A DNA stretch of 44,416 nt from an uncultured Porphyromonadaceae bacterium. GTDB lineage: Bacteria; Bacteroidota; Bacteroidia; Bacteroidales; Muribaculaceae. The DNA is taken from positions 1 to 44,416 of the forward strand of contig CAMWIH010000003.1 in NCBI GenBank assembly GCA_947174305.1, in the 5' to 3' direction. The notes under the pieces are model-generated. The model made no database searches and had not been told where the DNA came from. It saw nothing but the letters and a program-made list of their open reading frames with translations. Below are positions 7,293 through 44,364 of this stretch, piece by piece. How positions within the stretch are numbered: the first letter of the stretch is position 1; each line of letters begins with the position of its first letter. Position numbers and translations under genes: made by a program.

Positions 7293-7498
7293 AAAAGCTG
7301 ATGATTCTCCTTATCCGGTTCTATCAGGGAGCCATTTCACCTCATTTCCCTGCCGCCTGCCGTTATCAGCCCACGTGCAGTCAATATGCCATAGAGGCCA
7401 TTACAAAGCATGGCCCGTTAAAGGGTCTATGGCTGGCCGTAAAGCGAATATGCCGGTGCCATCCCTGGGGTGGCTCAGGATACGACCCCGTCCCATAA
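7289..7498 (+). CDS. yidD: Membrane protein insertion efficiency factor YidD
   Basis: 69 aa '[62 protein letters not shown]'. Confidence 0.97.
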
Positions 7499-7501
7499 TA
7501 G

Positions 7502-7525
7502 CCCTATAACCCTATAACCCTATAA
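7502..7525. repeat. 3 x 8-bp tandem repeat CCCTATAA
   Basis: ccctataa ccctataa ccctataa between yidD stop and tatD start. Confidence 0.9.
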
Positions 7526-7539
7526 CCCCACTTAATACT

Positions 7540-8243: not shown

Positions 8244-11201
8244 TTGAGAGCGAAATTATTCATTATCACATCCATCCTCCTTCTGCTTCTCATCCTTGCC
8301 GGATGCGGAACAAAGAAGAATACTGCCGGTTCGCGCAACTGGCAGGCTTTCACCACGCGCTATAATGTCTATTACAACGGCAAGGAGCATTATAACGAGC
8401 AGATTAAGGATATGGAGGGTAAATATGAGGATGACTATTCCCGGTTCGTGCTCACCCATCCTGCCGAGGCGCGTGCCGACCAGAAACAGCCCCAGCCTAC
8501 GGGAGACTTCAAACGCACCATCGAGAAGATGCAGAAGGCCATACAGCTTCATTCAATCAAGAAGAAGCCGGCAAAAAAAAATTCTTCTCCCAAGGATAAG
8601 GCTTTCCGTGCCCGCGATGAATTTAACCCGTTCCTGCATAAGGCCTGGATGCTTATGGGGGAGGGACAGTATCTTAACGGTGATTTCTTAGGTGCGGCCG
8701 CCACATTCTTCTATATCTCGAAGCATTTCACGTGGCTTCCCGACGTGGTAACCGAAGCGAGGATACGCAATGCCCTTGCCTATCTTGCCCTGGACTGGAA
8801 CTACGAGGCCGAAAACGCGCTCCATCTCGTAAAGCCCAAGGACCTCACAACACAGAAGCTTAAGGATCTCTATAACCGTGCCATGGGAGATTATTACGTG
8901 CGCACCGAAAAGTATTCGCAAGCCATTCCCTATCTTGCCCAGGCTGCCAAAAAGGCTTCCGGCACTCAGAAAAACCGTCTCTATTTCCTGTTGGGACAGG
9001 TATATGCCCACGAGGGTGAACGCCAGAAGGCCTATCAGGCTTTTAAGAAGGCCGGTGCGGGCAATTCTCTCCCCTATCGTGCCAAGTTCAATGCACGCAT
9101 AAAGCAGAGCGAGGTCTATGCCGGATCTAACGTCAAGAAAGAGGTTGGATCATTGCTTGCCATGACCCGTTATGCACGAAACAAGGAATTTCTCGACCAG
9201 ATATATTATGCTGTCGGTAACCTCTGGATGTCGCGCAACGATTCTGCCCAGGCCAAGAAATATTATGCGCTCGCGGTGGAGAAATCTACACGCAACGGCA
9301 TCGACAAGGCCCTCGCCCAGCTCGCTCTCGGAAATATATATTTCGACGAGGGTGAGTATGTCAAGGCCCAGCCCTGCTATTCGGAAGCCGTGCCTCAGCT
9401 CCCGGAAAGCTTTCCCGACTACAAGATGCTGAAACGTCGTTCGGATGTGCTCGACGAGCTGGCTGTATATGCCGGCAATGTGGAGCTTCAGGATTCTTTG
9501 CTCACCCTCTCCAAGATGACTCCCGAGGAGCGCGAGAAGGTGTGCCAAAAGATTGTTGACGACCTCATCGCCAAAGAGAAGAAGGAGGCGGAAGAGGCCA
9601 AGAAGGAGGCTTACCTTGCCGAACAGGAGGGAAACAAGAATATCAAGGATAACAATCCCGCTCCCGCCGTGGGAATGAATTCCGACAAGTCGTGGTATTT
9701 CTACAACACCATGACAAAGAATGCCGGAAAAACAGAGTTCCAGCGCAGATGGGGAGCCAGAAAACTGGAAGACGACTGGCGTCGCCGAAACAAAAGCTCC
9801 TTCTCTTTTGAAGAAGAGGAAACCGCCGATAATTCCGAAGATTCCGATAACTCCGATAATTCAGATAATTCCAATCCCTCCAATAAAGAGGAGAAAGAGA
9901 AAAAAGATGATGAGAACGATCCTCACAACGTGGCTTACTATCTCAAGCAGATTCCAACCACCGAAGAGGAGATTCAGAACGCCAACGACATAATTCAGGA
10001 GGGCCTGTACAACGAGGGTGTGATTCTCAAAGACAAACTGGAGGATTTCTCTGCCGCCAGAAAGGAGTTCCTGCGTCTCGAAAACCGCTATCCCGACAAT
10101 ATATATCGTCTTGACGTTTATTATAACATGTATCTTATGGCGGTGCGTCAGAATATGCCCGGAGAGGCGGAGAAATGGAGGGCCAAGATCATAGCCGACT
10201 TCCCCGATTCCCCTTACGGCAAGGCTATGCTCGACCCTGACTATTTCGATAATCTCCGCAAGATGAATTCCATCCAGGAGGGACGGTATGAGACGGCCTA
10301 TAACGCCTACCTGAACAATAACAATGCCACCGTGCATCGAATCACTTCGGATATGGAACGAGATTATCCGCTTTCCACCATACTCCCGAAATTTGTGTTC
10401 ATCGATGCCCTATCATATCTCACCGAAAATGATAATGAGCGGTTCAAGGAACGCTTAACGGAGCTTCTCCAAAAGTGGCCCGAAACCGATATGACCGATA
10501 TGGCAGGGGGCATCCTTTCGGGTCTGAAGGCAGGGCGTGTGCCCAACTCCGACGGCTCCAATTCAAGGGGCATGATATGGTCAATGCGTCTCTCCAACGA
10601 TTCCGTGCCGACAGGCGCCGATGGCCAACCCGCCAATTTTGAACGAGACCCGGAGAAACCGCAATATCTCGTGCTCGTTTTCCCACGCGATTCGGTGAAT
10701 GCCAATCAGCTGCTCTACGATGTGGCGCGCTTTAACTTCTCCTCTTTCGTGGTCCGCGACTTTGATCTCGAGCCCATGAGTTTCGGAAATGTCGGGTTGC
10801 TTATTATAAAGGGCTTCGACAATCTGAAACAGCTTGAGCATTATCGCTCGGTGATGGAGAAATCCCCTTTCCGCATCCCCGAAGGGGTTCGGCCCGTGAT
10901 GATAAGCAAAGCCAACTTTGAACTTCTCTTGCGCGAAGGACGTTCATTTGAAGAATACTTCCGCTTCGAGGAAGACGACAAATACGATGCCGTAGAAGAC
11001 TCGGTATTAAATAGCGAGGATGAGGGTTTGAATAGCGACAATGAGGGTTTGAATAGCGATGATGAAGTGGAATCAGCCAGTGAAGAAATGCCTACCTCGC
11101 CTATAACGCCTACTCCGCCTACCTCGCCTACAAATCCGGAGGAGCCTACCTCGCCCACAAATCCGAAGGCAGAAGAGAGCGAAGCAGAAGAAAATAATTA
11201 A
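8244..11201 (+). CDS. porW: TPR lipoprotein, T9SS component PorW/SprE-like
   Basis: TTG start, lipobox 'LLILAGCGTKKNTAGSRNWQAFTTRYNVYYNGKEHYNEQI', TPR repeats and C-terminal 'YDVARFNFSSFVVRDFDLE' as in SprE/PorW; directly upstream of porX. Confidence 0.82.
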   Translation: MRAKLFIITSILLLLLILAGCGTKKNTAGSRNWQAFTTRYNVYYNGKEHYNEQIKDMEGKYEDDYSRFVLTHPAEARADQKQPQPTGDFKRTIEKMQKAIQLHSIKKKPAKKNSSPKDKAFRARDEFNPFLHKAWMLMGEGQYLNGDFLGAAATFFYISKHFTWLPDVVTEARIRNALAYLALDWNYEAENALHLVKPKDLTTQKLKDLYNRAMGDYYVRTEKYSQAIPYLAQAAKKASGTQKNRLYFLLGQVYAHEGERQKAYQAFKKAGAGNSLPYRAKFNARIKQSEVYAGSNVKKEVGSLLAMTRYARNKEFLDQIYYAVGNLWMSRNDSAQAKKYYALAVEKSTRNGIDKALAQLALGNIYFDEGEYVKAQPCYSEAVPQLPESFPDYKMLKRRSDVLDELAVYAGNVELQDSLLTLSKMTPEEREKVCQKIVDDLIAKEKKEAEEAKKEAYLAEQEGNKNIKDNNPAPAVGMNSDKSWYFYNTMTKNAGKTEFQRRWGARKLEDDWRRRNKSSFSFEEEETADNSEDSDNSDNSDNSNPSNKEEKEKKDDENDPHNVAYYLKQIPTTEEEIQNANDIIQEGLYNEGVILKDKLEDFSAARKEFLRLENRYPDNIYRLDVYYNMYLMAVRQNMPGEAEKWRAKIIADFPDSPYGKAMLDPDYFDNLRKMNSIQEGRYETAYNAYLNNNNATVHRITSDMERDYPLSTILPKFVFIDALSYLTENDNERFKERLTELLQKWPETDMTDMAGGILSGLKAGRVPNSDGSNSRGMIWSMRLSNDSVPTGADGQPANFERDPEKPQYLVLVFPRDSVNANQLLYDVARFNFSSFVVRDFDLEPMSFGNVGLLIIKGFDNLKQLEHYRSVMEKSPFRIPEGVRPVMISKANFELLLREGRSFEEYFRFEEDDKYDAVEDSVLNSEDEGLNSDNEGLNSDDEVESASEEMPTSPITPTPPTSPTNPEEPTSPTNPKAEESEAEENN
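9823..9885 (+). repeat. In-frame 9-bp GATAAYTCC-type repeats coding (D/E)(N/D)S
   Basis: gataattccgaagattccgataactccgataattcagataattcc inside porW, encodes DNSEDSDNSDNSDNS. Confidence 0.85.
11010..11070 (+). repeat. In-frame ~21-bp repeat in porW
   Basis: aatagcgaggatgagggtttg / aatagcgacaatgagggtttg / aatagcgatgatgaa, encodes NSEDEGLNSDNEGLNSDDE. Confidence 0.9.
11090..11164 (+). repeat. 9-bp-period GCCTANNNN array inside porW coding sequence
   Basis: gcctacctc gcctataac gcctactcc gcctacctc gcctacaaa tccggagga gcctacctc gcccacaaa; same unit as intergenic arrays around recA. Confidence 0.9.
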
Positions 11202-12748: not shown

Positions 12749-12786
12749 AAAATGATGCAACCTTAGGTTGCATCATTTTCTATTTT
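12742..12786 (+). terminator. Rho-independent-type hairpin, 22-bp perfect stem
   Basis: aaaatagaaaatgatgcaacct-t-aggttgcatcattttctatttt; overlaps porX stop codon. Confidence 0.9.
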
Positions 12787-12790
12787 ATCA

Positions 12791-12890
12791 TGTCGCATCA
12801 TGATTTATCATGTTTCATCATGATTCGTCTTGTTTCATCATGATTCGTCTTGTTTCATCATGATTTATCATGTTTCATCATGATTATAAG
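12791..12890. repeat. 10-bp-period TGATNNATCA-type tandem array
   Basis: tgtcgcatca|tgatttatca|tgtttcatca|tgattcgtct|tgtttcatca|tgattcgtct|tgtttcatca|tgatttatca|tgtttcatca|tgattataag. Confidence 0.92.
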
Positions 12891-41071: not shown

Positions 41072-41360
41072 CGATAGGCTTTTATAGGCATTATAGGCTT
41101 TGTAGGCTTTGTAGGCATTGTAGGCATTATAGGCAATGTAGGCGTTGTAGGCAATGTAGGCAATGTAGGCATTATAGGCAATGTAGGCGTTGTAGGCAAT
41201 TATAGAGAGGCTTTCCGAATGCGGAGCCACGGGGCGGGAGCTTGCAGCTTCCGCAAAATCCGAGGGGCTCGATGCCCCGCAGGATTTTCCGCCTACCCAG
41301 CCTAATTCGCCTATCCCGCCTATCCCGCCTAATTAGCCTACCCCGCCTAATTAGCCTACC
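41072..41360. repeat. Composite element: RTAGGCNWT 9-mer array, REP-like core A and hairpin, then inverted GCCTANNNN 9-mer array
   Basis: About 14 left units of 9 bp, core 41221-41255, hairpin 41253-41291, about 8 right units (gcctaccca gcctaattc gcctatccc gcctatccc gcctaatta gcctacccc gcctaatta gcctacc). Confidence 0.92.
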
Positions 41361-42703: not shown

Positions 42704-42870
42704 TAGGCTTTTTAGGCGAAATAGGCAGTATAGGCGAAATAGGCTTTTATAGGCATTATGGGCGGGATAGGCATTCCTATTCCGCCCATATCATTGCCTA
42801 CCTCGCCTACTCCGCCTATCCCGCCTATCTCGCCTACTCCGCCTATCCTGCCTACCTCGCCTACCCTGCA
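42703..42870. repeat. Composite 9-mer array: TAGGC units, central hairpin, inverted GCCTA units
   Basis: Hairpin ATGGGCGGGATAGG-CATT-CCTATTCCGCCCAT at 42758-42789; 8 right units of exactly 9 bp. Confidence 0.92.
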
Positions 42871-44204: not shown

Positions 44205-44364
44205 TTGTAGGCTTAATGGGCTGAATAGGCTTTGTAGGCTGAATAGGCGTATGATGGGCTGAATAGGCATTATGGGCGAGATAGGCATTCCTATCCCGCC
44301 CATTATTATTTGCCCACTTCGCCTATCCTGCCTATCACGCCTACCCCGCCTATCACGCCTAAAT
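44205..44364. repeat. Composite 9-mer array downstream of recA
   Basis: TAGGC units, hairpin ATGGGCGAGATAGG-CATT-CCTATCCCGCCCAT (44272-44303), then GCCTA units (gcctatcct gcctatcac gcctacccc gcctatcac gcctaaat). Confidence 0.92.

Follow-up and report, generated by a model that had tools for sequence, protein, structure and literature searches.

Rickettsia palindromic elements (RPEs) are palindromes that lie in frame within protein genes (Ogata et al. 2000, 2002, reviewed in PMC10969869). They are about 150 bp long and fall into defined families, each with a conserved peptide, and nearly half of them are located in genes (PMC10969869). TAACTGA direct repeats occur in Beggiatoaceae, Cyanobacteria and some Bacteroidetes (MacGregor 2015, PMC4679880); the repeat is a perfect heptamer found mostly just 5' of start codons, it introduces stops into every frame when read in one orientation, and only one indirect repeat was described. 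REP sequences are palindromes of 20-40 bp with GTAG or CGTC tags, and roles of REP/BIME in termination and mRNA stability have been proposed (PMC3733652). In Porphyromonas gingivalis, a minisatellite is reported within a MITE (PMC4596501).

The DNA analyzed here (the window) is a stretch of 44,416 nucleotides from an uncultured Porphyromonadaceae bacterium of the family Muribaculaceae, whose genome we call G000. The window contains porW, the product of which matches the NCBIfam model NF052312 (PorW/SprE) over residues 14-755 with an E value of 1e-198 (662 bits against a cut-off of 250) and SprE in the PDB (8gl8_I) over residues 11-757. Its N-terminus, LRAKLFIITSILLLLLILAGCG, was judged by eye to be a lipoprotein signal, and porX (NF052313) follows the gene, a T9SS gene context. 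The features discussed below are listed in Table 1.

Table 1. Repeat arrays and the genes that carry them; positions without a locus prefix refer to the window
Feature	Position	Strand	Remarks
porW/sprE	8244..11201	+	Encodes a periplasmic T9SS lipoprotein and carries the coding array; NF052312, TPR domains; orthologs in 55/61 related genomes
Second period-9 in-frame repeat of porW	9826..9886	+	CCGATAATT units coding DNSDNSDNSN, internal acidic segment
21-bp in-frame tandem repeat of porW	11010..11065	+	Separate repeat in the same PorW tail (LNSDDEG); shorter in G066
Five perfect GCCTANNNN units in porW	11090..11134	+	In frame, coding PTSPITPTPPTSPTN
27-bp (three-unit) duplication inside the porW array	11117..11170	+	TRF period 27, 92% match; absent in sister species G066
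gpsA-pgi element	41085..41358	.	13 TAGGC units, ~90-bp core, 8 GCCTA units; one long hairpin, -133 kcal/mol
pgi-recA element	42704..42863	.	5 TAGGC units, 14-bp palindromic core, 8 GCCTA units; hairpin, -81 kcal/mol
Post-recA element	44208..44361	.	4 TAGGC + 5 GCCTA units flanking a pgi-recA-type palindromic core; hairpin, -80 kcal/mol
DNA polymerase I gene (polA) with array	L062:1-2036, G000 contig C1		16-unit in-frame double-arm array, linker between 5' nuclease and Klenow parts
AddB-like PD-(D/E)XK nuclease gene with array	L122:9281-9330 (G066)		In-frame TAGGC array in a variable loop

The letters of porW from position 11090 read gcctacctc gcctataac gcctactcc gcctacctc gcctacaaa tccggagga gcctacctc gcccacaaa tccgaaggc. 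The whole array, 11090-11170, keeps one 9-bp register, and the spacers of the perfect units (CCTC, TAAC, CTCC, CCTC and CAAA) fit the family pattern, in which GCCTA cores recur exactly every 9 bp and the spacers vary but contain little G. The reading frame runs G CCT ANN NNG (spaces marking codon boundaries) and the translation is MPTSPITPTPPTSPTNPEEPTSPTNP, with MPTSPITPTPPTSPTNPEEPTSPTNPK as a peptide stretch of the tail array. The five perfect units are followed by a degenerate one, and the duplication copies the last three units (11117-11143 and 11144-11170). Only the GCCTA arm is present in porW, without the inverted partner, and the porW fold was no better than that of shuffled sequences. 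The original prediction had placed in this tail an in-frame repeat identical in unit and period to the recA-region arrays, and this was confirmed: the arrays in the intergenic regions next to gpsA, pgi and recA share both unit and period with it. The predicted start at 11090 was also correct, but the array ends at 11170 rather than 11164, and it lies within the C-terminal tail without being the terminus itself, since KAEESEAEENN (about 10 residues) separates it from the stop at 11201. Stop-codon readthrough into a 3' array was considered and rejected: on visual reading, most orthologs terminate close upstream of porX, and the residues after the array are common to the sister species (G066). 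An assembly artefact is unlikely, as the array is located in mid-contig and is present too in the separate G066 assembly.

The usual form of the repeat was examined by surveying, by pattern and region, every array of at least four units in G000 and at least three units in G066. The three-unit pattern had 145 matches in G000 and 90 in G066, against none for a reversed control pattern in the whole G000 genome; two-unit matches in the window numbered 42, compared with 0.05 expected from dinucleotide shuffles. Among 111 genomes of the genus, mostly draft assemblies, the four-unit pattern was abundant in G000 (100) and G066 (48), and no comparable family was found in the approximately 109 others, one of which has a lone simple repeat. 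G is rare in the spacers, with counts of 0, 3, 11 and 6 at the four positions of 346 unit-to-unit spacers. TAGGC arms precede GCCTA arms in all 20 mixed-orientation elements; many intergenic elements were detected with a single arm, so the inverted partner is not constant in the family. Gene 3' ends are favored, because the flanking ORFs are tandem in 17 + 11 cases, convergent in 14 and divergent in 4. An Rfam search of the array region gave nothing above the gathering score and one sub-threshold match to a microRNA model (27 versus 96 bits). Many G000 contigs (C1, C3, C8, C28, C44, C119, C179 and C205) end close to an array. The assembly, which is 88% complete, seems to break at arrays, and the array numbers of G000 are therefore probably underestimates.

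The three window elements all gave hairpins of regular shape. Two of them folded better than spacer-shuffled controls (z -4.9 and -5.0), but the gpsA-pgi element did not (z -0.2). The pgi-recA element begins immediately past the pgi stop codon. At this site the left arm is common to G000 and G066 and the cores differ, a 14-bp palindrome in the former versus an element of about 85 bp in the latter; G015, a further related species, has the 14-bp palindrome together with a TAAGC-like array. The comparison suggests core swapping between element sites. The ~85-bp core (GGAGCCACGGGGCGGGAGCTTGCAGCTTCCGC) also occurs upstream of pgi in G000, besides its pgi-recA position in G066 (L096).

The PorW orthologs of the related genomes were then compared, with tail lengths taken from 51 complete tails. 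The conserved part of PorW stops near residue 908 (GRSFEEYFRF), and the tail beyond it is mostly acidic, low in complexity and hypervariable, with a median length of 68 residues (range 20-117). GCCTA units occur in the tails of G000 and G066 only. In G066, whose protein is 94% identical over the match, the tail carries four units, against 5 + 1 perfect units in G000. The G015 protein (91%) has eight TCCGAT units in the tail instead, and a further TCCGAT array in an internal acidic segment (L094:17167-17199, residue 530) that matches the site of the second period-9 repeat of G000. SES/SEN-type 9-bp repeats are present in the tails of G016, G062, G014 and G135, and in the 44-140 kb sampled per genome no intergenic arrays matching the tail repeat were found for G016, G062 and G135. 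Because all 55 tails are hypervariable and several carry unrelated 9-bp repeats, the PorW tail locus, and not GCCTANNNN itself, is the hotspot for in-frame period-9 repeats generally. A Pro/Thr tail written in other codons was seen in one distant ortholog, G129, but no conserved Pro/Thr tail, which would have argued against the original prediction, was found. The PorW of P. gingivalis contacts PorN through its C-terminal domain D6, which is not conserved across all PorW/SprE proteins (PMC8754138). The suggestion that the repeat remodels the end of a secretion-machine protein is supported in part; an effect on secretion itself would be hypothetical, and the array is one filling among many of a tail that tolerates insertions and deletions.

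The same repeat was found in other coding sequences. Contig C1 of G000 begins within polA, and between QPSLFDES and the Klenow part the encoded protein reads MGGVGEVGGIGTVGEMGDLGGIGEIGNAPTTPNMPTMPKSPTTPNMPTAPIPPIPTS, from seven TAGGC and nine GCCTA units in the orientation of the intergenic elements. The corresponding linker has two units in G066 (IGGMPTSPI), degenerate period-9 GCCYR units in G015 (PVPPVMPVAPI) and no units in G003 and G031. In the AddB-like nuclease, the loop of G066 (VGGVGEMGGVGKIGEVGEVGDVG) contains six units versus about one or two in G000; the loop is short in G000 and G015 and is replaced by an unrelated charged stretch in G109. In the rumen Bacteroidales genome RGIG3228, an unrelated MAG rich in GCCTA arrays, a FAD/iron-sulfur protein has PTSPTLPTSPTLPTSPTLPT in a linker right before its Fer2_BFD domain. 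The GCCTA arm is read in the same stop-free Pro-Thr frame in porW, polA and the RGIG3228 gene. Differing unit numbers in porW, polA and the AddB-like gene bear out the idea that the repeat occurs and varies within coding sequence, the comparison being between species. Such cases are rare: 4 of the 68 elements in G000 and G066 are truly intragenic (porW in both, polA and addB), all at tails, linkers or loops. Considering that ORFs make up about 90% of the sampled bases in the surveyed stretches, the exclusion of arrays from coding sequence is strong, tolerant sites apart. Several other arrays called within ORFs (L113, L132, L083 twice, L084 and L085) were rejected as ORF-call artefacts, 5' extensions before likely starts or spurious ORFs, as was an ORF at L065 (6383-7297), which lies opposite real-looking genes.

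We consider it probable that GCCTANNNN is a hairpin minisatellite specific to this lineage, growing in frame at places where the protein tolerates insertions and deletions. The family is built from an invariant 5-base core and a 4-base spacer nearly free of G. Its usual home is between genes, mostly at gene 3' ends and often as two inverted arms, TAGGC before and GCCTA after a core, able to form a long hairpin, with short seeds also present inside genes. Arrays in genes gain and lose units, for which replication slippage or unequal exchange is the probable mechanism, and purifying selection would retain units only at disordered tails, linkers and surface loops, and in stop-free frames. The open frames are CCT-ANN-NNG, which reads the GCCTA arm as Pro-Thr/Ile-x, and NTA-GGC-NNN, which reads the TAGGC arm as Val/Ile-Gly-x. 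Since 9 is divisible by 3, arrays stay in frame whatever their unit number, as the original prediction had argued; the period and the stop-free frames together explain how the frame survives. The PorW tail accepts nearly any low-complexity filling, and the resident family filled it in the G000/G066 pair, probably with little effect on PorW function. Beyond the observed presence, distribution, frames and sites of the arrays and their differences in unit number, growth from small seeds is suggested by the graded unit numbers at shared sites in three related species. The two family-rich genomes among the 111 are also the two with a porW array, which appears to support a link between the family and the tail; however, G000 and G066 are sister species, so this coincidence amounts to one phylogenetic event. 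Furthermore, the tail repeats of G016, G062 and G135, which lack a sampled intergenic counterpart, imply that local coding repeats can arise alone and that the link could be partly coincidental.

An unlikely alternative is that a Pro/Thr-rich disordered PorW tail was selected at the protein level, with the DNA repeat a by-product of codon slippage unrelated to the intergenic family. The disordered-looking tail in every genus ortholog examined, the SEN/SES/DNS tails made from unrelated 9-bp repeats and the other codons of the G129 tail would all agree with such convergence. However, the GCCTA core spans codon boundaries and is invariant while the x residues vary, as in the intergenic arrays, and ordinary codon choice would yield the PorW register with a P of about 1.6e-6, although units copied from one another are not independent. 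Moreover, no genome lacking the intergenic family had the motif in porW, and the motif also occurs in polA and addB, where no need for a Pro/Thr-rich tail is apparent. Insertion of mobile, RPE-like palindromic elements, complete or as single arms, into porW, polA and addB is unlikely, though a serious rival chiefly on account of the two polA arms: these arms, the unlike pgi-recA cores of the sister species with an ~85-bp core recurring at different sites, and the dispersal of arrays, frequently at contig ends, would fit it, but no target duplication, fixed element ends or linked transposase was noticed, and the small or degenerate polA versions in G066 and G015 and the short addB version in G000 fit growth from seeds better.

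A second family, TCCGATNNY, forms arrays in 12 of the 111 genus genomes, often as inverted pairs, and was absent from G000 and G066 at the stringency of the scan. Its unit is found in the PorW tails of G015 and G023, and on the opposite strand in that of G067, for which the scan gave no further copies. Genomes with TCCGATNNY and tails with it are weakly associated (Fisher P 0.02-0.05, without correction for the tree). A general rule that the PorW tail always carries the family of its own genome is only weakly supported, and G016, G062 and G135 tell against it. Each species of the genus might have its own period-9 hairpin family, with the core turning over between lineages (GCCTANNNN, TCCGATNNY and possibly others) and a common process spreading the family between genes and in frame into the PorW tail, the polymerase I linker and the AddB loop; we regard this wider scheme as improbable. 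If it were true, protein tails and linkers would track the resident repeat.

Several other repeats were observed. A period-8 ATAACCCT array lies at 7498-7528 of the window, shortly upstream of the ATG of a TatD-like gene, and similar arrays elsewhere in the genome are often within about 50 bases of an ATG. A period-10/20 CATCATGATT array is located past porX (12784-12885), and its period-10 word is repeated in G066 and G015 too. Loci L291 and L294 of G067 contain a further intergenic period-9 family, GACTAATTA. The rumen Prevotella genome RUG541 (ONQB01; L155, L161, L202, L219 and others) is very rich in GCCTACC.. arrays, which, unlike those of the window genome, form long tandem stretches with few inverted pairs.

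The preferred reading, a minisatellite growing in frame at tolerant sites, would provide a concrete route from non-coding repeat to protein sequence, in which a spacer repeat writes new stretches where they are tolerated. The core would fix one residue in three as Pro or Gly, and disordered sites alone would accept the array. Because one family is found in DNA polymerase I, a recombination-type nuclease and a secretion protein, unit counts among strains could distinguish a neutral clock from a tuned tail. Caution is also advisable, as Pro/Thr or Gly/Val stretches in PorW, Pol I and AddB-like proteins may reflect repeat DNA rather than protein function.

The open-access literature searched contained no account of the GCCTANNNN family. 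The family resembles the RPEs: both are dispersed repeats that form hairpins and are also found in frame within unrelated genes, which they leave unbroken. However, its arrays are not ~150-bp elements of a defined family with a conserved peptide: the unit is 9 bp, the length varies by the unit, the peptide varies, the ends are unfixed and about 6% of the elements are in genes. Like TAACTGA, it is an abundant short intergenic repeat with a patchy spread that sometimes enters ORFs, mostly at protein edges, but it has a period of 9, a variable spacer, common inverted hairpin pairs and two open frames. With REP/BIME it shares the hairpin-forming intergenic repeats, although the REP palindromes are not extendable 9-bp arrays. 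The minisatellite reported from P. gingivalis likewise combines tandem and inverted repeats in a Bacteroidales genome, whereas no MITE ends were found around the GCCTANNNN arrays.
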